Source: Methanolobus sp. ZRKC5
Lineage (GTDB): Archaea; Halobacteriota; Methanosarcinia; Methanosarcinales; Methanosarcinaceae
NCBI RefSeq assembly: GCF_038446525.1
Contig: NZ_CP151792.1
Span: 248,001-312,000 of the forward strand
Length of the DNA: 64,000 nucleotides
Direction of reading: 5' to 3'
This document shows, piece after piece, positions 4,885-15,929 of the stretch (position 1 is the stretch's first letter; each line of letters begins with the position of its first letter). The translations under genes and the position numbers were made by a program. The notes under the pieces are model-generated. The model saw only the letters and a list, made by a program, of their open reading frames with translations. It was not told the DNA's origin and searched no databases.

Positions 4885-7800
4885 TCAGTTAACCTTCGAT
4901 ATACCAATCTTCATGGATATGCCTTCGACATTCCAGTCCTTCTCAAGGGATCCGGAAGTGTCGACATCAAGACCTATCACCTGAACATTTGAACGGGTCT
5001 CTTTTGCGATGAACTGTTCACGATCAAGCACAAGATCCAAAACTCTTTCGTCATTGATCTGTATGTGTGAACTAATGTTGTCATCAACTGCAAGATCGAG
5101 CTCTTTTCGCATGTCCTGCACCCTGCGGATAACTTCCCTCGTGAAACCTTCAGATTCAATCTCACGGGTGAGGTTTGCATCCACATAAATGGCACCTGCA
5201 CTTGACTGAGCACTCGCAACCATTTCAGGCAATGCCTCAGTGAAGTTCACCATTTCAGGCTTAATTGTGACTTTTCCACCAGGTATCTCAAGTTCGAACT
5301 CCCCTTCCAGAGCTAGTGCAGTCTTCAACTCAGTAGCGTCAGTCTGTTTTATAGCTCCAATGACCTTGCCGGCATCGCCTTTAAATACTGGGCCAATGGC
5401 ACCGTGCTCTGGATTTACCTCAAATCCAAGTTCATCCCATGATTCGCCTATACCTGTTAGCACAATGTCCTTGGAATTAGTCTGATCCATGAGCACAGAC
5501 TTGAGATCCATCACAGCATCGGCTGCCTGCTGATTCTCAGGAGTGAGCACTATGCGTGATACAGGCCATCTAAGCTTCCTGCCTACCTTCTGACGGGCAT
5601 TGGATGCAGATTCCACAATTGAACGAGCCATTTTCATGTGAGCTTCAAGATCCTTGTCCACGAGGCTCTCATCGATAACCGGCCAGTCGGTCATGTGAAT
5701 TGATACCGGAGCATCTGGATAAACGTTCTTCACAAGATTCTGGTACATCTCCTCAGCCAGGTGTGGCATGAATGGTGCAATCACCTTTGCAGTCAGGACA
5801 AAAACATCATACAATACACGATAGACTGCAAGCTTGTCCGGATCGTCAGCCTCTACCCAGGTTCTTGGCCTGATAAGCTGGATATACCATCTGGAAAGAT
5901 CCTCAAGGACGAACTCGTTTACAGACCTCAGTGCCCTGTGCAGTGTACACTTGGCCATGGCATCATCCACATCAGCAATGAGTGACTGTGCCCTGGAAAG
6001 TATCCACCTGTCCTCTTTACGCAGATGTGGCCTGACAGACTCAAGTGATACCTTTGAAGGATCGAACTTGTCAAGCACCATATAAGGCAACGGGAAACGA
6101 TACACATTCCAGAGAATGTTTAGTGTCCTGTTGATGTTCCCAAGTTCATCCGGGACGAATTTCAGGTCATCCCAGGGTGAACTGGAAGAGAGTACGAAAC
6201 TACGCAGTGTGTCTGCACCGAACTTCTCAATGACGTCGACTGGTGCAATGACATTACCAAGACTCTTTGACATCTTCCTGCCTTTGTCGTCAAGAGTAAA
6301 ACCATGCATCAGCACACTCTTGTATGGAGCCTTACCGAAAGCCACCATACTGGCACCAAGTTGTGAATAGAACCATCCACGAGTCTGGTCCTGCCCTTCT
6401 GTGATGAAGTCTGCAGGCCACCATTCATCAAATTGTTCCTTTTGCTGCGGGAATCGCAGGGTTGCCCATGAAGCTACGGCTGAATCGAACCAGACATCAA
6501 AGACATCTTCCACACGCTTCATCTTACCACCGCACTGGCAGTCCAGCAAAACCTCATCCACGTATGGTCTGTGAAGTTCAATATCTTCAGTAAGACCTGA
6601 CATTTCCTGAAGTTCTTCTTTTGTACCCATGACATGCAATCTGTCACAGCTATTACACATCCAGACAGGTATCGGTATACCCCAGTATCTCTGGCGTGAT
6701 ATGCACCAGTCACGTGCTCCCTCTACCCAGTCCTTAAACCTTGCAGAACCTGCCCAGTCAGGATACCAGTTTACTTTCTCGATTTCTGAAAGCATCTCTT
6801 CCTTTAGGTCACCTATTTTAATGAACCACTGTTTGGTAGCAAGATAGATAATAGGAGTCTTACAGCGCCAGCAATGTCCGTACCTGTGTTCAATAGTTCC
6901 TTCTGAGAGTAGGTTGCCACGTTCCTTAAGATCCTCGATAATGACTTTATTGGCCTCACGGATGTGCATACCAGCATATTCACCTGCTTCTTCGGTGTAA
7001 CGTCCGTCAGGACCCACTGGACAGAAGATAGGAAGACCGTTCTTCTTACCGACCTCAAAATCGTCCATACCATGCCCGGGGGCAATGTGTACACAACCAG
7101 TATTCTCTGCGGTCACAAAATCAGCAAGATAGATGCCGTGCTCCATAGATGCCTGTTTTGGCACCATGTCATGCAGCGGACTTTCGTAGGAAAGTGATGT
7201 GAGGTCCTCGCCAAGCATTGTATCCAGCACTTTATAATCAACATACCTTCCTTTCCTGAGCAGAGCTTCCATAAGTTCGGAGGCCACAATAAGGACTTCT
7301 TCCTTACCATCTGAAGCCACAGCCTTTACTTTTGAATACTCAAATGACGGATGTACTGCCACTGCAACATTGGAGGGGATGGTCCATGGAGTTGTGGTCC
7401 ATATGACAACAAAAGTGTTCTCTTCACCGTTTATCTTGAATTTGACAAATATGGAAGGATCTTTGCGTTCCTCGTACTCGACTTCAGAATCTGCAATTGC
7501 CGTTTCGCAGCGCGGACACCAGTTGACCACACGTTTTCCCAGCTCCAGTAAATTTTTATCCTGGGCCTGCTTGAGGGTCCACCAGGCAGCCTCAATGTAC
7601 TCATCCTTGAGTGTCATATAAGGATCTTCCCAATCAAGCCATGCACCAAGCATCTGGAATTGACCGGTCATATCATCCTTCTGAGTAAGAGCAAATTCCT
7701 TACATTTCTCGATGAAATTGCCAACACCATATGCCTCAATATCCTTCTTGGAGGTAAAACCAAGGGCACCTTCCACTTTAACCTCTATTGGAAGTCCATG

Positions 7801-8698: not shown

Positions 8699-9553
8699 TC
8701 AGAGCTCTTTCACAAGGCGGAAACCAATATAATTCTTGTGGCTTCCATCACCGATACTATCCCTGTCAGATGAACGGCAGTTTGATTCTGCATTTTCCCA
8801 GCTTCCACCACGGATCACTCTTCTGTCAACCCCACCTGTCCATTCACTTCCATCGGTTGGTGCTTTCTGGTAGTTGCTGTGGTATTCATCAGCCACCCAT
8901 TCAGCGATATTGCCATGCACATCGTAAAGACCCCATGGATTTGCTTCCTTCATACCAACTGGGCGTGTTTTGTCTTCAGAATTATCATCATACCAGCCAT
9001 AACCCACCAGCATAGATTCATCATCACCAAATGAGAAAGCCGTATCTGTACCAGCCTTAGCTGCATATTCCCATTCAGCTTCAGTAGGCAGACGATATGT
9101 GTCAGTATCTTCCATTTTATTGAGCTTATCAATGAATTTATTAGCATCAACCCAGGAAACTTTCTCAACAGGCAGATCAGCACCTTCAAAGTAAGATGGA
9201 TTGGTGCTCATTACTTCATCCCATTGCTCCTGAGTTACCTCATAAATACCCATATAGAAGTCATTTCCAATAGTTACCTCATGTACAGGCCTCTCATCTT
9301 TGTCACTGTACAATTCATCTTCCAGTGCACCCATGAGGAAAGATCCTTCTGGAATTTTCACAAATTGCATTCCAATTGAATTGGTAAAGCTAGTATCGTC
9401 GACCTCTATTTCCTCGGGGACAGAATCAACTTCTGCGAGCTCCTCATTTTCTTCATCGGTAACGTCATCTCCGGAATCAGTACAGCCACTACCAATGACC
9501 GCAACCATAAGGATGACACCCATAATAATTGTCATGTATAATTTTTTGTTCAT
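8699..9553 (-). CDS. lipoprotein with formylglycine-generating-enzyme-like (SUMF1) domain
   Basis: A 284-residue exported protein. A signal peptide ends in the lipobox IGSGC at Cys24, followed by an acidic linker (residues ~28-55). The SUMF1/FGE-sulfatase fold then runs to the end ('GMQFVKIPEGSFLMG', 'YEVTQEQW', 'RLPTEAEWEYAA', 'WGLYDVHGNIAEWV', 'VIRGGSW', 'GFRLV'). The catalytic cysteine pair of true FGE, just after GGS(Y/W), is absent: GGSW is followed by ENAESNC with one Cys further on. It is therefore probably not a sulfatase activator, and no sulfatase lies nearby. Many bacterial and archaeal members of this fold have other or unknown roles on the cell surface. Confidence 0.8.
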   Translation of the reverse strand: MNKKLYMTIIMGVILMVAVIGSGCTDSGDDVTDEENEELAEVDSVPEEIEVDDTSFTNSIGMQFVKIPEGSFLMGALEDELYSDKDERPVHEVTIGNDFYMGIYEVTQEQWDEVMSTNPSYFEGADLPVEKVSWVDANKFIDKLNKMEDTDTYRLPTEAEWEYAAKAGTDTAFSFGDDESMLVGYGWYDDNSEDKTRPVGMKEANPWGLYDVHGNIAEWVADEYHSNYQKAPTDGSEWTGGVDRRVIRGGSWENAESNCRSSDRDSIGDGSHKNYIGFRLVKEL

Positions 9554-9791: not shown

Positions 9792-10427
9792 CTAGTTGCT
9801 GATAGATTCTGCTTTTCTCTCAAGAAGTATATCTTTGCACCTTTGTAAATCCTCAACTGTATTGATATTGAGTGCCAGTTCAATATTATCCAGTACAAGG
9901 CTTACATAATCCTGTTCATGATCAACATCATTACCGTCCATTATATTGATCCCTGAAGGAACTATCAATTCCCCTTTCCCCTCCCAGTTAAAAACCGTAT
10001 CGGGACGGATGCCAAGACTTTTACAAACACATATGGGGGAAAAAATCGACATTGCCGGTTTCCCACATGTCTTATACTCTTTTATTACCTTTTCAAGAAG
10101 CTCTGGTGTCAAAAGAGGCAGGTCTGCCATAAGAATAAGAAGCGGGTCCGTGATACAAGCAGCCTTTACTGCATACACCATATCACCCACATAATTACCT
10201 CCACCCGTTGGAATCACCATTACCTTGCCATCATACTTTTCCTGGATAAAGGATGCGGTCCTGGGGGTTGCAGGGGAAACAGCAACATATATGTCACCAA
10301 TGCTCCCAGTCCTTTGCAGAGTATCGATCACATAAGTGATGAGAGGCTTTCCCAGTAGTTCAACACAGGGTTTTTCACCCATATCAAGCCTGCTTCCAAA
10401 TCCCCCTGCCATTATTATAGCGTCCAA
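9792..10427 (-). CDS. cobY: GTP:adenosylcobinamide-phosphate guanylyltransferase
   Basis: The archaeal non-orthologous replacement of CobU: it makes adenosylcobinamide-GDP from the phosphate and GTP. The protein has 211 residues with the nucleotidyltransferase signature 'DAIIMAGGFGSRLDMGEKP', 'GKPLITYVIDTL' and 'LLILMADLPLLTPELL' (metal-binding Asp). The start is TTG at 10427, giving MDAIIMAGG as in other CobY; the next ATG would cut into the conserved motif. The start overlaps the end of cobS by 13 bases. It is last in the operon and ends in TAG. Confidence 0.9.
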   Translation of the reverse strand: MDAIIMAGGFGSRLDMGEKPCVELLGKPLITYVIDTLQRTGSIGDIYVAVSPATPRTASFIQEKYDGKVMVIPTGGGNYVGDMVYAVKAACITDPLLILMADLPLLTPELLEKVIKEYKTCGKPAMSIFSPICVCKSLGIRPDTVFNWEGKGELIVPSGINIMDGNDVDHEQDYVSLVLDNIELALNINTVEDLQRCKDILLERKAESISN

Positions 10428-11236
10428 ATAATACCTCCATACATTAATGTCAATGTGATGGTCATCAATGCCACTATCCTTCCGATCTCATTGGAAGCAC
10501 CAATGACATCACCATTGACACCACCAAAATGCCTGTTGCTTACGTTAAGTAATATCAGTGTTGCTGCAATCGCTGCTATGAATGGGATGATACCGACAAT
10601 TCCAAGACCAAAATAAAAAGATGAGCCAAGGCAGGCAATACTACCAATTACAAAACCTATAAGATATTTAGGTACTGTGGTTTTGTTCACGAGTATAGAA
10701 CCCAGTCCTTCATGGATAGGTTTACCAAATGCTGCAATTGTCAGCATAGACTGCATTGCACTTACCTCAGATACGAACATTGCAAAGAAGAATATGCGTG
10801 CTACATCTGCAGTAGTTGAATACAGAACAATGGATTCACCATAAAGTGATGTAAGGGTCGCGTAGAATGCAATGATAATAAGAGCTGCATATGCTACCCC
10901 TCCTATCCCCAGAGACATATCCTTCAGAGCTTTCAATTTCTTTTCCACTGAACCGTGGGCTGTCAGACCATCACCAAGATCAGCTATCCCATCCAGATGA
11001 TTCAGACCGGTAATATAGTAAACAAAAGCAATGATAAGTACTGCGCTTATGGAAATTGGCAGAAAGCTTATGAGAATATAGGCTACGACACCCATCAATA
11101 GACCAAGTACGATACCTACGACCAGATGCAGGTAAGTTCTTTTGAAGAACTCATCAAGACCCTCCATGGTGATTCCCACGGGGATGGTTGACAGGAATCC
11201 GAAGCTGGAACGAAGAGCTAATAAAAACCCGGTCAT
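10415..11236 (-). CDS. cobS: adenosylcobinamide-GDP ribazoletransferase (cobalamin synthase)
   Basis: An integral membrane enzyme (273 residues, about six to seven hydrophobic segments) that joins adenosylcobinamide-GDP to alpha-ribazole(-phosphate), closing the nucleotide loop. The family motif 'YYITGLNHLDGIADLGDGL' with its acidic Mg ligands is intact, as is 'GVNGDVIGASNEIGR' near the C-terminus. The start overlaps the cobZ stop by four bases (ATGA) and the end overlaps cobY, so translation is probably coupled through the three genes. Confidence 0.92.
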   Translation of the reverse strand: MTGFLLALRSSFGFLSTIPVGITMEGLDEFFKRTYLHLVVGIVLGLLMGVVAYILISFLPISISAVLIIAFVYYITGLNHLDGIADLGDGLTAHGSVEKKLKALKDMSLGIGGVAYAALIIIAFYATLTSLYGESIVLYSTTADVARIFFFAMFVSEVSAMQSMLTIAAFGKPIHEGLGSILVNKTTVPKYLIGFVIGSIACLGSSFYFGLGIVGIIPFIAAIAATLILLNVSNRHFGGVNGDVIGASNEIGRIVALMTITLTLMYGGIIWTL

Positions 11237-11874
11237 CCTGCTATCACATCACTTTTGTTTTTCAGGTCTTTTTTTTCTTCTTTCTTAGTTTTACCGGATG
11301 AAAGTGCCGATTCTGCCATGGCTCTTGTATACATACTAGCAGATACACCACCGATAAGCCCACCTATTATATCGTCCATGAAAGGCCCAAGTTTTGAGAG
11401 AATGCCGGGTTTTTGCTTGTCAAAACGCACGAACTCGAACATTCCTTTGTCGCCACTGATATATTTGGAGATGCTCATGCCAAGAACCTCATCTGCAATT
11501 ATGAAGGTCAGATCCTTTTCGTATGAACTTTTACTGATATTAGGTAATCTGCCTGCACGACCTTCTTTTTCAAGAAGTATCCCTGAATATACAAGCATAC
11601 AGAGGTTTGCATCAAATAGGGCTATATTAAGTTCGTACAGGAATTTTTCCTCTGCAAGCTCCCTTGTTTCGATGCCCGGGTGTGGAACATATAACTCCAA
11701 CGCAGTGTCAACAAGCATCTGAACAGTTATTCCTTCCTCTTCAAGGATATCAATGATATCCCTGGTGACATCACCTTCCAGTTCTTTAGACTGGTCTTTT
11801 TTCCGGTCTTCTGATTCTATATCCGATAATTTCATTGTTATCACTTTGGAGAGATTTGTCAAATTTAATTTCAT
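11233..11874 (-). CDS. cobZ: alpha-ribazole phosphatase, CobZ type
   Basis: A 213-residue protein matching the archaeal CobZ family, first characterised in Methanosarcina mazei. It removes the phosphate from alpha-ribazole-5'-phosphate (or adenosylcobalamin-phosphate). The core 'LVDTALELYVPHPGIE..EKFLYELNIALFDANLC..VYSGILLE' and the Gly/Asp-rich 'FMDDIIGGLIGGVSASMYTRA' stretch are present; the fold is related to PgpA phosphatases. A second ATG 14 codons in (MKLSDIESED) is an alternative start. Nine bases separate it from cbiB upstream, and it overlaps cobS by four bases. Confidence 0.85.
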   Translation of the reverse strand: MKLNLTNLSKVITMKLSDIESEDRKKDQSKELEGDVTRDIIDILEEEGITVQMLVDTALELYVPHPGIETRELAEEKFLYELNIALFDANLCMLVYSGILLEKEGRAGRLPNISKSSYEKDLTFIIADEVLGMSISKYISGDKGMFEFVRFDKQKPGILSKLGPFMDDIIGGLIGGVSASMYTRAMAESALSSGKTKKEEKKDLKNKSDVIAG

Positions 11875-11883
11875 CTGTCAATA

Positions 11884-12858
11884 CTATGTCAAAATTATTA
11901 GTAAAGATACAATAATTGCAAATAATGATGCTACAAGAGTTATCCATGAGGTCAACTTGATGTCTTCGGAGACAGGATAAACGAAGCCTTCACCCAGTAC
12001 ATATGTATTAGGTTTTTCAAGCTTTATCCTTAGTGCACCTGCAACTGATGCCATGGGAAAACCTGAGTTTGGAGATGGGGTTTTCAAGCCATCTGCAAGT
12101 CCGCTTTTCAATGCACTTTTGTAATCCGGTACTTTGATCCCGCGATAAACTAATCTGATTGTCAGAGTTGCTGCAGAAATAAAGAGAACGGACAAACGGG
12201 CAGGCACCCAGTTGAGCACATCATCAAGCTTTGCAGAGAACCAGCCCATATCCCGGTGACGTTCATCCATGTACCCCACCATAGAATCAAGGGTACTTGT
12301 CGCTTTAAAAACATATGCTGCAATCAGTCCGAAAGGACCAAAGCATGCATAGAACAACAGTGGGGAAAGAATGCCATCTACATAGTTCTCTGATGTTGTT
12401 TCAATGATAGCCGACGATATATGGTTTTCATCCAGCTTTGATGTATCCCTGCTTACATACATGGATAATTTTTGCCTGGCACCGTCAAGCTTTCCTGCAT
12501 CCAGCTCTTTCCGGACCTCATCTGCAGCACCAGAAAGACAGCGTACAGCAAATGTTGCCTTGAGGAAATAAGCAGCAACAATATAACGTAGCGGAGCGGG
12601 AATATTTTCAACCCCCATGAAGAGCAATACAAGATATGCTATAAGACTGCCAAATAGTATAGTGCTAAGGCCCATGAATATTCCATAGAGCTTTCTGTGG
12701 GTCTTAGGGACATTTTTCTTGAAAATAGCTATCAATTTACCCATCCAGACAACCGGATGAATTGCAGCAGGTGGTTCGCAAAATACCAGATCCAGGGCAT
12801 AGGCTAACAGAAGCACTATCGCAAGTTCACTTGCGTCAGCCTGTACCGGCAGCATCAT
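11884..12858 (-). CDS. cbiB: adenosylcobinamide-phosphate synthase
   Basis: An integral membrane amide-bond-forming enzyme (324 residues) that attaches aminopropanol phosphate to adenosylcobyric acid. Recognised by 'LAYALDLVFCEPPAAIHPVVWMGKLI' at the N-terminus, 'SRDTSKLDE', 'IETTSENYVDGILSPLLFYA' and 'FKATSTLDSMVGYMDERHRDMGWFSAKLDD'. Four to six membrane segments are visible. It overlaps the upstream cobD by four bases (ATGA). Its substrate, aminopropanol phosphate, is the product of that neighbour. It ends in TAG. Confidence 0.93.
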   Translation of the reverse strand: MMLPVQADASELAIVLLLAYALDLVFCEPPAAIHPVVWMGKLIAIFKKNVPKTHRKLYGIFMGLSTILFGSLIAYLVLLFMGVENIPAPLRYIVAAYFLKATFAVRCLSGAADEVRKELDAGKLDGARQKLSMYVSRDTSKLDENHISSAIIETTSENYVDGILSPLLFYACFGPFGLIAAYVFKATSTLDSMVGYMDERHRDMGWFSAKLDDVLNWVPARLSVLFISAATLTIRLVYRGIKVPDYKSALKSGLADGLKTPSPNSGFPMASVAGALRIKLEKPNTYVLGEGFVYPVSEDIKLTSWITLVASLFAIIVSLLIILT

Positions 12859-14360
12859 AAGTTATTCTCCATTACTTCCTTCCAGGCCTTCTCAGTGCTT
12901 TCTTTATTGAGTCCATCTACTGTGAACACAGATAACAGTTCATCAACAACTTTTTCCTGATGAACTATAGTGCATTTAAGACAGCTCCATACCTGTCCAC
13001 CACTGGAACTCTCAATCCAGTTGCCCCCGGTGCGATTGTCCTCACACGGATAGAACGGACAGAAGCAGAATGTGCAGTCCTGTCCTTCAAAATGGCAGGG
13101 ATAATAATCACAGTCTGTATTGCTACCCCGACGGCCACATTCTGCTGCTGCTGCTTTTATATTTTCTTCAAGTTGGATTTTTGCCTGTTCCCGGCCCCAT
13201 TCATATATTACCTGACGAATAGTAGATGCGATAAGTTCATTTTCTTCTCTTTTACGTATAGCTATTCGAATGAAACTAGGACCTATGTTCTGGAATGAAT
13301 TACAATCACGTATCAACACACCATGGGAGGCCATACGTTCTGAAAGCTCAGATGAACTCATGGCAAGATCGGATATGTCCACGAAAATATAGTTCACACT
13401 GCTTTCAAATGGCTTAAAACCCCGACGTGAGAATTTTTCCATGAGGAATTCATATTCCTTTCTTATAAAAGCCCTGGATTCTATCAGGTACTTGCTGTTT
13501 GCTCCCCCTTCCATACTCAAAAGGGCAGTTGCAACAGTATCTGCAATACATCCCATATTCCAGGAAAGCCTGGCATTGTTAAGTACACCGGCAAATTTCT
13601 TTGAAGCTATACCAAAACCCATCCGGATACCAGGAATAGCAAAAGCCTTTGTGAGGGAGCGCTGGATAAAAAGATAATCATTTTCCTCAACAAGATATGC
13701 AACACTCTGCTCAGGATCTGCAAGTTCTATGAATGCTTCATCTACAAAGAGAATGGTCTTATGAGCTGCACATATATCTGCAAGTTCTTCTATTTGCTCT
13801 TTTAATAGTAGTTTTCCTGTAGGGTTATTGGGATTGCACACAAAGAGAATTTTAGCTTCATCAAGCAGGTTATCGTCAAGATGGAAGATATCTTCCTGAG
13901 CAACGTATTCTATTTGTGCCCCCATAACCTTGCACTGCATCTCATATTCACTGAATGTGGGCGTGGGAATCAGTACAATATCCCCTTCACTTATTACACA
14001 TTCAGCAACCAGCCTGATGATCTCAGTTGAACCATTGCCTGGAATTATGTTCTCATGTGTTATCCCCATACCAACAAAATCAGCTGCTGCTGTCCTGTAT
14101 TCCATATAACGGTTATCAGGATACTGTTCTAATTTTTCAAGTCCGGTATTAAGAAGATCCTGTAGGTCAAGTTCCGAATCAGCCTGTTCAAACGGGGTTC
14201 CAAAAGGATTCAAATTTGCACTTGCATCCAATATATCTGACTCAGGTATCCCATATCTCTGGGAACTTTTTCGGATCAGTCCGCCATGCGCACATGGCTC
14301 AAGACTTAGAAGATATTTCTTTACCGGGAGAGATGATCTTTGTTCTGTCACAATAATCAA
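12855..14360 (-). CDS. cobD: threonine-phosphate decarboxylase with C-terminal Cys-rich domain (probably also L-threonine kinase)
   Basis: A 501-residue two-part enzyme. Residues ~25-385 form a class I/II PLP aminotransferase fold: CNPNNPTG with Asn179, 'LFVDEAFIEL' (PLP Asp) and the Schiff-base lysine Lys238 in 'RSLTKAFAIPGIRMG', all intact. The last ~100 residues carry a conserved cysteine cluster (CDYYPCHF, QDCTFCFCPFYPC, WSCLKC). The homologous M. mazei protein MM2060 was reported to be bifunctional, phosphorylating L-threonine and decarboxylating the product, with the Cys-rich domain required for the kinase part. It supplies aminopropanol phosphate to CbiB. Its own TATA-like element lies at 14376-14397. 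Confidence 0.92.
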   Translation of the reverse strand: MIIVTEQRSSLPVKKYLLSLEPCAHGGLIRKSSQRYGIPESDILDASANLNPFGTPFEQADSELDLQDLLNTGLEKLEQYPDNRYMEYRTAAADFVGMGITHENIIPGNGSTEIIRLVAECVISEGDIVLIPTPTFSEYEMQCKVMGAQIEYVAQEDIFHLDDNLLDEAKILFVCNPNNPTGKLLLKEQIEELADICAAHKTILFVDEAFIELADPEQSVAYLVEENDYLFIQRSLTKAFAIPGIRMGFGIASKKFAGVLNNARLSWNMGCIADTVATALLSMEGGANSKYLIESRAFIRKEYEFLMEKFSRRGFKPFESSVNYIFVDISDLAMSSSELSERMASHGVLIRDCNSFQNIGPSFIRIAIRKREENELIASTIRQVIYEWGREQAKIQLEENIKAAAAECGRRGSNTDCDYYPCHFEGQDCTFCFCPFYPCEDNRTGGNWIESSSGGQVWSCLKCTIVHQEKVVDELLSVFTVDGLNKESTEKAWKEVMENNL

Positions 14361-14414: not shown

Positions 14415-15929
14415 TCAGAGCAGAGGCTCAATTATTTCCTTCCATGCCCTCCTTATGTTCTCATCGGTGTCTCCGTCAGCCATAAGTGCATCAAGCACCA
14501 TTTTGGCGACTTTTGGTCTATGCAATAAAGTACAATGTTCACAACTCCATACCCGTCCGCCGGTGGTACTTTCTATACATTTACCACCTGTCTTCTCTTC
14601 CTGACATGGATAAAAAGGACAGAAGCAGAACGTACAATCCTGGCCCATAAAATGACAGGGATAGTATTCACAGGAACCGCGCCCTGCAGCAGTTGCACCA
14701 CCATGTTCAATGGTTTCCTCAAGTTTTTCCTTGGCATCTTCCCTGCTAAGTTTAGCAAATACATCATCAAGGGTACGTATAAGCTTCTCGAATTCTTCCT
14801 TGGGGCGAACAGATATCCTGACATATCTTTTGGATCCATCAAAAAAATCACCGCATTCACGAATCATTATTCCATGAGATGCAAGGCCTTCTGTAAGCCT
14901 TACAGAATCCACAAAAAGGTCATTCACATCCACAAGCACGTAATTGGCACTACTTTCAACAGGATCGAAACCATATATGTCAAAAAAACGTTTGCTGATA
15001 TATTCTCTTTCTTTTTTGATCAGAGCCCTGGAATCATGCAGGTATTTACAATTAGTGCCACCTTCCATATTCAGAAATGCAATTCCAATGGCCTCTTCTA
15101 CCGCACCTATATTCCATGACAGCCGGGCAGAATTAAGCACACCGGACATGGAACACGAACCAATCCCATATGCTAGCCTCATACCAGGCATACCAACAAT
15201 ATTTGATACTGACCTTATAACAAAAAGATGATCATTATCTAGCGTAATGTCAGCAACACTCATATCAGGGTCAGCAAGTTCAATGGATGACTCATCAACT
15301 ATAAGCAAAGTGTTATGTTCAGCACACTTCTCTGCAAACATCACCAATGAATCTCTTGATGTAAGTTCCCCGGTAGGATCGTTCGGGTTCTCAAGAATAA
15401 CTATCTTTGCCCTTTCCAATGTCATTTTTGGAAGGGCCAGTAATTCCTTTGACGTAAATGAATGTACACGAGCACCGAAGATCTCAGCTATATGACAATA
15501 CTGTCCGGATGAAGGAGATGGAACTATTACCATATCGTCTTCATTTACAACAGACCCTATCAACAGACGTAGAAGCTCGCATGAGCCATTTCCAGGAACT
15601 ATATTTTCAAAATTGATGCCATGACCGAGAAAACCAGCAGCTGCAGTTCTTAATTCCAGATATCTGTTATCCGGATACTGTTCTGATCTTATAATAGAAG
15701 CAAAGACTATCTGCTTCTGGTCAAGTTCACTTCCCTGAAAATCAAACGGTGTGCCCAAAAGATTGGTGTTTGAACTAAAATCAAGAATATCTGATTCAGA
15801 CAGGTTATATTTTTCAGCTGATTCATGAACCCTTACACCATGATTTTTAACTTGCAATGCAAGCAAATACTGCTTCAAATGAGGTGGAAAATTTTTTTGG
15901 AACACACTTATCAACACGTGGTTACGCAC
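14415..15929 (-). CDS. CobD paralogue lacking the PLP lysine, Cys-rich domain intact
   Basis: A tandem paralogue of the downstream cobD (504 residues, same architecture). At the Schiff-base position the sequence reads 'RSVSNIVGMPGMRL': Lys is replaced by Asn243. The NPTG asparagine is also changed (NPND, Asp184). The PLP-phosphate and substrate regions are otherwise recognisable, and the C-terminal cysteine cluster (CEYYPCHF, QDCTFCFCPFYPC, WSCEHC) is fully conserved. By inference it cannot decarboxylate by the normal PLP chemistry but may keep L-threonine kinase or a metal/Fe-S role. The start is uncertain: GTG at 15929 has no clear ribosome site, and GTG at 15917 or 15905 or TTG at 15914 are possible. 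It has its own promoter, with the gap to cobD being 54 bases. Confidence 0.88.
   Translation of the reverse strand: MRNHVLISVFQKNFPPHLKQYLLALQVKNHGVRVHESAEKYNLSESDILDFSSNTNLLGTPFDFQGSELDQKQIVFASIIRSEQYPDNRYLELRTAAAGFLGHGINFENIVPGNGSCELLRLLIGSVVNEDDMVIVPSPSSGQYCHIAEIFGARVHSFTSKELLALPKMTLERAKIVILENPNDPTGELTSRDSLVMFAEKCAEHNTLLIVDESSIELADPDMSVADITLDNDHLFVIRSVSNIVGMPGMRLAYGIGSCSMSGVLNSARLSWNIGAVEEAIGIAFLNMEGGTNCKYLHDSRALIKKEREYISKRFFDIYGFDPVESSANYVLVDVNDLFVDSVRLTEGLASHGIMIRECGDFFDGSKRYVRISVRPKEEFEKLIRTLDDVFAKLSREDAKEKLEETIEHGGATAAGRGSCEYYPCHFMGQDCTFCFCPFYPCQEEKTGGKCIESTTGGRVWSCEHCTLLHRPKVAKMVLDALMADGDTDENIRRAWKEIIEPLL

Follow-up and report, generated by a model that had tools for sequence, protein, structure and literature searches.

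A CobD paralogue without the PLP lysine and with an intact cysteine-rich domain, encoded beside a lysine-bearing CobD in Methanolobus

From our analysis of a 64,000-nucleotide stretch of the Methanolobus sp. ZRKC5 genome (hereafter the window), two cobD genes were found in tandem on the minus strand. The upstream copy (14415..15929, GTG start, 504 aa) has Asn243 at the site of the Schiff-base lysine of pyridoxal 5'-phosphate (PLP), and the downstream copy (12855..14360, 501 aa), separated from it by a gap of 54 bp, has Lys238 together with Asn179; the two proteins are 46% identical. On the 3' side of the pair, on the same strand, lie genes of cobamide nucleotide-loop assembly in the order cbiB, cobZ, cobS and cobY-like. 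The adenosylcobinamide-phosphate synthase gene cbiB (11884..12858; TIGR00380, 278.5 bits, cut-off 165.9) overlaps the downstream cobD by 4 bp and is followed by the alpha-ribazole phosphatase gene cobZ (11233..11874; TIGR03161, 161.3 bits, cut-off 152.5), the adenosylcobinamide-GDP ribazoletransferase gene cobS (10415..11236; TIGR00317, 147.7 bits, cut-off 110), and a cobY-like guanylyltransferase gene (9792..10427) which, at 121.5 bits, stays below the cut-off of 250 for NF045495. An Rfam scan around the operon gave no match, and a scan of the operon for sigma-70-type promoters, a type not expected in archaea, returned hits at chance level. Further along the same strand (8699-9553) is a lipoprotein-like ORF with PvdO/GldK-type (formylglycine-generating-enzyme-like) similarity below cut-offs.

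Both CobD proteins of the window combine an aminotransferase class I/II domain with a PF04071 domain at the C-terminus (Pfam). In the Lys-less protein, Aminotran_1_2 (PF00155) was matched at residues 47-386 with an E-value of 1.8e-32, so a fold-type-I aminotransferase domain is present, and the zf-like PF04071 domain (81.8 bits, cut-off 27) spans residues 419-484 (14478..14675, minus strand) with its 8 Cys and 2 His intact. The same eight cysteines and two histidines are found in the downstream copy, in agreement with an earlier sequence-only reading of this locus, according to which both copies keep all the cysteines of the C-terminal domain. Against the CobD equivalog model TIGR01140 (cut-off 290.55), the Lys-bearing copy passes with 292.9 bits, whereas the Lys-less copy fails with 212.2 bits. 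An AlphaFold2 model of the Lys-less protein, for which the input was the two window sequences only, had a pLDDT of 46.7 and was too poor to use.

We then searched P0001 against 238 genomes of the class and fetched the loci. Lys-less copies were grouped into clade A, comprising 27 Methanolobus genomes and six inferred to be Methanomethylovorans, and clade B, comprising eight genomes inferred to be Methanohalophilus; the genomes of both clades also carry a Lys-bearing CobD. The tandem pair with the Lys-less copy upstream is present in all 27 Methanolobus genomes, with lysine in every downstream copy, and the same arrangement is found in 6/6 putative Methanomethylovorans genomes, where one downstream copy is cut by the contig end. 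The sequence-only reading had proposed checking homologues for conservation of the Lys-less state, and the lysine is absent from every upstream copy (27/27 and 6/6); this occurrence in 33 genomes of two genera rules out sequencing error or chance. In the clade B loci inspected, the Lys-less copy lies directly upstream of cbiB and the Lys-bearing copy is about 20-26 kb away. Phylogenetic trees were built from 137 rows and, more carefully, from 58 rows with the pocket columns left out. The clade A Lys-less copies form one clade (support 100/100), and those of clade B nest inside the Lys-bearing second copies of putative Methanococcoides (100/100). A single grouping of both Lys-less clades is rejected (AU test, p 0.0019), which rules out a single origin, and together with the supported nesting this indicates that the lysine was lost at least twice independently. 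The exact attachment of clade A on the tree is unsure because long branches are present.

The residues named by the sequence-only reading, Asn243 and Asp184 in the upstream copy against Lys238 and Asn179 in the downstream copy, were found in the alignment as described. The two PLP-site changes are of unequal weight: the loss of lysine is universal in the upstream copies, whereas 18 of 27 Methanolobus Lys-less copies still have Asn at the position equivalent to Asn179. Lysine occupies the Schiff-base site in 95 other aligned CobD copies. Its replacement is Asn in 24/27 Methanolobus upstream copies (Asp, Arg and Gly in one each), His in 6/6 putative Methanomethylovorans copies, and Asp, Thr, Asn or Tyr in the eight of putative Methanohalophilus. 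Several further losses, absent from the sequence-only account, affect the pocket (partner numbering): none of the 41 Lys-less copies retains Thr135, Phe136, Ala209 or Lys238, so that the PLP-ring contacts (Thr135, Phe136 and Ala209) are gone, Gly248 is lost in all Methanolobus Lys-less copies, and Thr237 in most. Position 209 is Ser in 41/41 Lys-less copies; in other families, a number of Lys-bearing copies have Thr there. Arg365, the counterpart of R374 of aspartate aminotransferase (AAT), which binds the substrate alpha-carboxylate (PMC9309667), is kept in 41/41 Lys-less copies, and Ser47 and Asn51 in essentially all of them. Tyr80, which by alignment corresponds to AAT Y65, the residue that reaches across to touch the partner subunit's PLP phosphate (PMC9309667), is present in 33/33 clade A copies and in 2/8 of clade B. 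Since the Schiff-base lysine, absolutely conserved in catalytically active aminotransferases (PMC9309667), is gone, the Lys-less copy is predicted from its residues to be a pseudo-decarboxylase, which should not decarboxylate L-threonine phosphate on its own.

The Cys-rich domain has been retained to a far greater extent than the aminotransferase domain. Among 95 Lys-bearing copies, 93 positions of the N domain and 24 of the Cys-rich domain are at least 97% invariant; the three Lys-less groups keep 54, 51 and 38 of the 93 N-domain positions, and each keeps 24 of 24 in the Cys-rich domain, in all 41 copies (Fisher p 1.7e-5, 6e-6 and 1.8e-8, respectively). Median omega (NG86), taken over 47 usable species pairs that are not independent of one another, is 0.123 for the N domain and 0.055 for the Cys domain of the Lys-less copies, and 0.050 and 0.069 for those of the Lys-bearing copies. 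The pseudo-decarboxylase of the sequence-only reading is supported, with strong conservation: at a dN/dS well below 1, the Lys-less copy is a constrained pseudoenzyme and not a product of decay. In each of 15 species pairs chosen for little overlap on the tree, putative Methanohalophilus included, the N domain of the Lys-less copy has a larger dN than that of the Lys-bearing copy (15/15, sign test p 6e-5). The domain-by-copy ratio points in the expected direction in 11/15, which is not significant (p 0.12). Mean within-genus identity is 0.61 for the N domain and 0.80 for the Cys domain of the Lys-less copies, against 0.77 and 0.75 in the Lys-bearing copies. The subfunctionalisation put forward in the sequence-only reading therefore survives as a division of labour between domains in clade A, and does not hold beyond it as a universal rule. 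Single-copy CobDs invariably have Arg414 and Met480; in clade A the Lys-less copies retain both residues and their Lys-bearing partners have lost them, and the reverse is seen in clade B. In the PLP domain of the Lys-bearing copy, 106/118 single-copy-invariant positions are kept, so no matching loss is found there.

PF04071 is present in 283/391 genomes sampled across the phylum. Among the architectures sampled it is fused to CobD, to CbiZ (L170-L172), to a GDPD phosphodiesterase (L173), and to CbiH/CobJ (L040), and it also forms a stand-alone protein of about 125-130 aa, encoded just upstream of cbiB (L174, L176, L039) or elsewhere (L175). A scan of genome contigs found two distant loci only, namely a stand-alone Cys-rich protein and a CbiH fusion. 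The sequence-only reading had labelled this domain kinase-type; given its occurrence on CbiZ, CbiH and GDPD proteins, and on its own by cbiB, a distribution unlike that of a Thr kinase, the label is not supported, and the module is not one reserved for phosphorylating threonine. In a genome of another family (G362, 100% complete), the gene of a Lys-less CobD whose Cys-rich domain is intact (L179:1156-2628) adjoins one for a B12-dependent ribonucleotide reductase, and the genome lacks cbiB as well as any evident active CobD. The window's own genome holds a weak PF04071 remnant of 24.8 bits, below the cut-off, with an in-frame TGA (G000:C1:637627-637788, L180).

The window protein can be placed against several known systems. 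Methanosarcina mazei CobD (MM2060) shares its Aminotran_1_2 plus PF04071 architecture, which is seen in all Methanosarcina-like copies that we read, and in the loci read the M. mazei-type gene occupies the same place upstream of cbiB as the window pair; in contrast to M. mazei CobD, the window protein is without the PLP lysine and the contacts to the PLP ring, and its gene has a second, intact copy beside it. Tavares et al. in 2018 reportedly found the isolated C-terminus of M. mazei CobD to be without kinase activity and not required in vivo. Salmonella enterica CobD (PDB 1LC5/1LC7/1LC8/1LKC) has the homologous fold-type-I domain and shares the alpha-carboxylate Arg, whereas the window protein lacks the equivalent of its Lys216 and has the additional Cys-rich domain. 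The serine palmitoyltransferase subunit LCB1/SPTLC1 is likewise a Lys-less paralogue of a PLP enzyme found alongside a catalytic one, and LCB1 without the lysine pairs with catalytic LCB2 (PMC3794620). LCB1 is not closely related and has no Cys-rich domain, and in the window pair a heterodimer is putative. Other proteins with the PF04071 "Cysteine-rich small domain" carry the same 8-Cys/2-His module and are mostly tied to cobamide genes, whereas in the window protein the scaffold that bears it is that of a dead decarboxylase. A search of open-access literature, which covers few subscription journals, turned up no account of CobD paralogues lacking the lysine.

We favour, with a probability of about one in two, the reading that the Lys-less protein is a non-catalytic partner or regulator of CobD bearing the metal module. 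A duplicated CobD would have lost the PLP lysine and kept the scaffold, the carboxylate-binding Arg, and the intact Cys-rich metal-binding module; it would then heterodimerise with, or bind, the neighbouring active CobD and supply it with a second metal module. Its PLP-free pocket may sense or gate L-Thr or L-Thr-P, and the outcome would be a tuned supply of aminopropanol phosphate to CbiB. The form with a heterodimer partner, which the sequence-only reading also raised and which we prefer, is plausible. This reading is favoured by the loss of lysine in 33/33 clade A and 8/8 clade B copies through two origins, by the co-occurring Lys-bearing CobD (adjacent in clade A, with the Lys-less copy abutting cbiB in clade B), by purifying selection, and by the retention of 24/24 Cys-domain positions, of Arg365 in all 41 copies, and of Tyr80 throughout clade A. 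The title of Tavares 2019, as given in PMC9986279, also states that the metallocentres of M. mazei CobD are needed for optimal activity. Against it, the tyrosine that would act in trans is mostly lost in clade B, where a heterodimer of the LCB1 type may fail, and the PF04071 domain occurs also without CobD. The partner is not always needed, because G362 has a Lys-less CobD without cbiB or an evident active CobD. A more specific version, in which a repeatedly evolved PLP-free CobD subunit of Methanosarcinaceae forms a heteromeric metallo-complex that would gate the B12 linker step by iron, redox or L-threonine, is tentative and rather improbable, more doubtful than the partnership itself.

The kinase step offers another reading, one of the two put forward in the sequence-only account: the Lys-less copy would be a subfunctionalised enzyme that makes L-Thr-P from L-Thr and ATP, leaving decarboxylation to the downstream copy. 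The M. mazei homologue is reported, in a title cited in PMC9986279, to be a bifunctional L-Thr kinase/L-Thr-P decarboxylase, and the retained Arg365, Ser47 and Asn51, as well as the complementary divergence of domains in clade A, are consistent with such a split. Nevertheless, we regard it as unlikely: the Cys-rich domain is not kinase-specific, the PLP domain of the Lys-bearing copy has not undergone a corresponding loss, and neither Pfam, where PF00155 and PF04071 are the only matches and no PduX/BluE-type kinase family appears, nor the NCBIfam matches listed, which are PLP-enzyme models only, include a kinase. The metal module could instead serve the handling of corrinoids or iron independently of CobD, as suggested by its presence on several cobamide-pathway proteins, by the stand-alone forms upstream of cbiB, by the gene neighbouring the ribonucleotide reductase in G362, and by the Cys domain being the best-conserved part. 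Purifying selection on the aminotransferase domain (omega about 0.12) is stronger than seems necessary for a domain that only carries the module, and residues of the substrate type are still in place, which makes this reading rather improbable, if slightly less so than a kinase.

Two further explanations carry far less weight. An enzyme that works without PLP and catalyses a new reaction in a remodelled pocket would accord with the parallel change of Ala209 to Ser in 41/41 copies and with the fixation of Asn in most Methanolobus copies and of His in the putative Methanomethylovorans; the pocket residues differ by lineage, however, and no conserved new catalytic set was seen, so we consider it very improbable. 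That the copy is a non-functional or decaying duplicate is the least likely of all, even though its N domain is relaxed, the residue at the Lys site varies, and the Lys-less copy of one genome (G127) has two stops, an in-frame TGA and a TAG, in its N-terminal stretch (L047, ~6085-6150), pointing to a late start or to early decay there. Against it stand the presence of the copy in all 33 genomes of the two genera, nearly always with an open frame, an omega well below 1, and a fully conserved Cys domain; decay of the entire group is ruled out by its universal retention and its low dN/dS.

The Lys-less CobDs are of wider interest since PLP chemistry has been split from the metal tail in at least two independent lineages, and the unaltered partner encoded in the same genome serves as a control; a comparison of the two window proteins would be a direct help in working out what the Cys-rich module does. 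Among Methanosarcinaceae proteins annotated as "CobD", active and dead enzymes may be lumped together. If the gating metallo-complex were real, cobamide synthesis would prove to be regulated at a new level, and nature would offer one more dead PLP subunit of the LCB1 type.

Among the loci fetched, we also noticed divergent third CobD copies, again Lys-less, in one genome each of two genera (L133:3657-5165 in G139 and L177:3445-4896 in G145); they are not located beside the other two copies and share the odd motif RSISxxFAxSD. In a putative Methanococcoides genome (G093), a second CobY-like gene (L070:7633-8259) lies between two Lys-bearing cobD copies.
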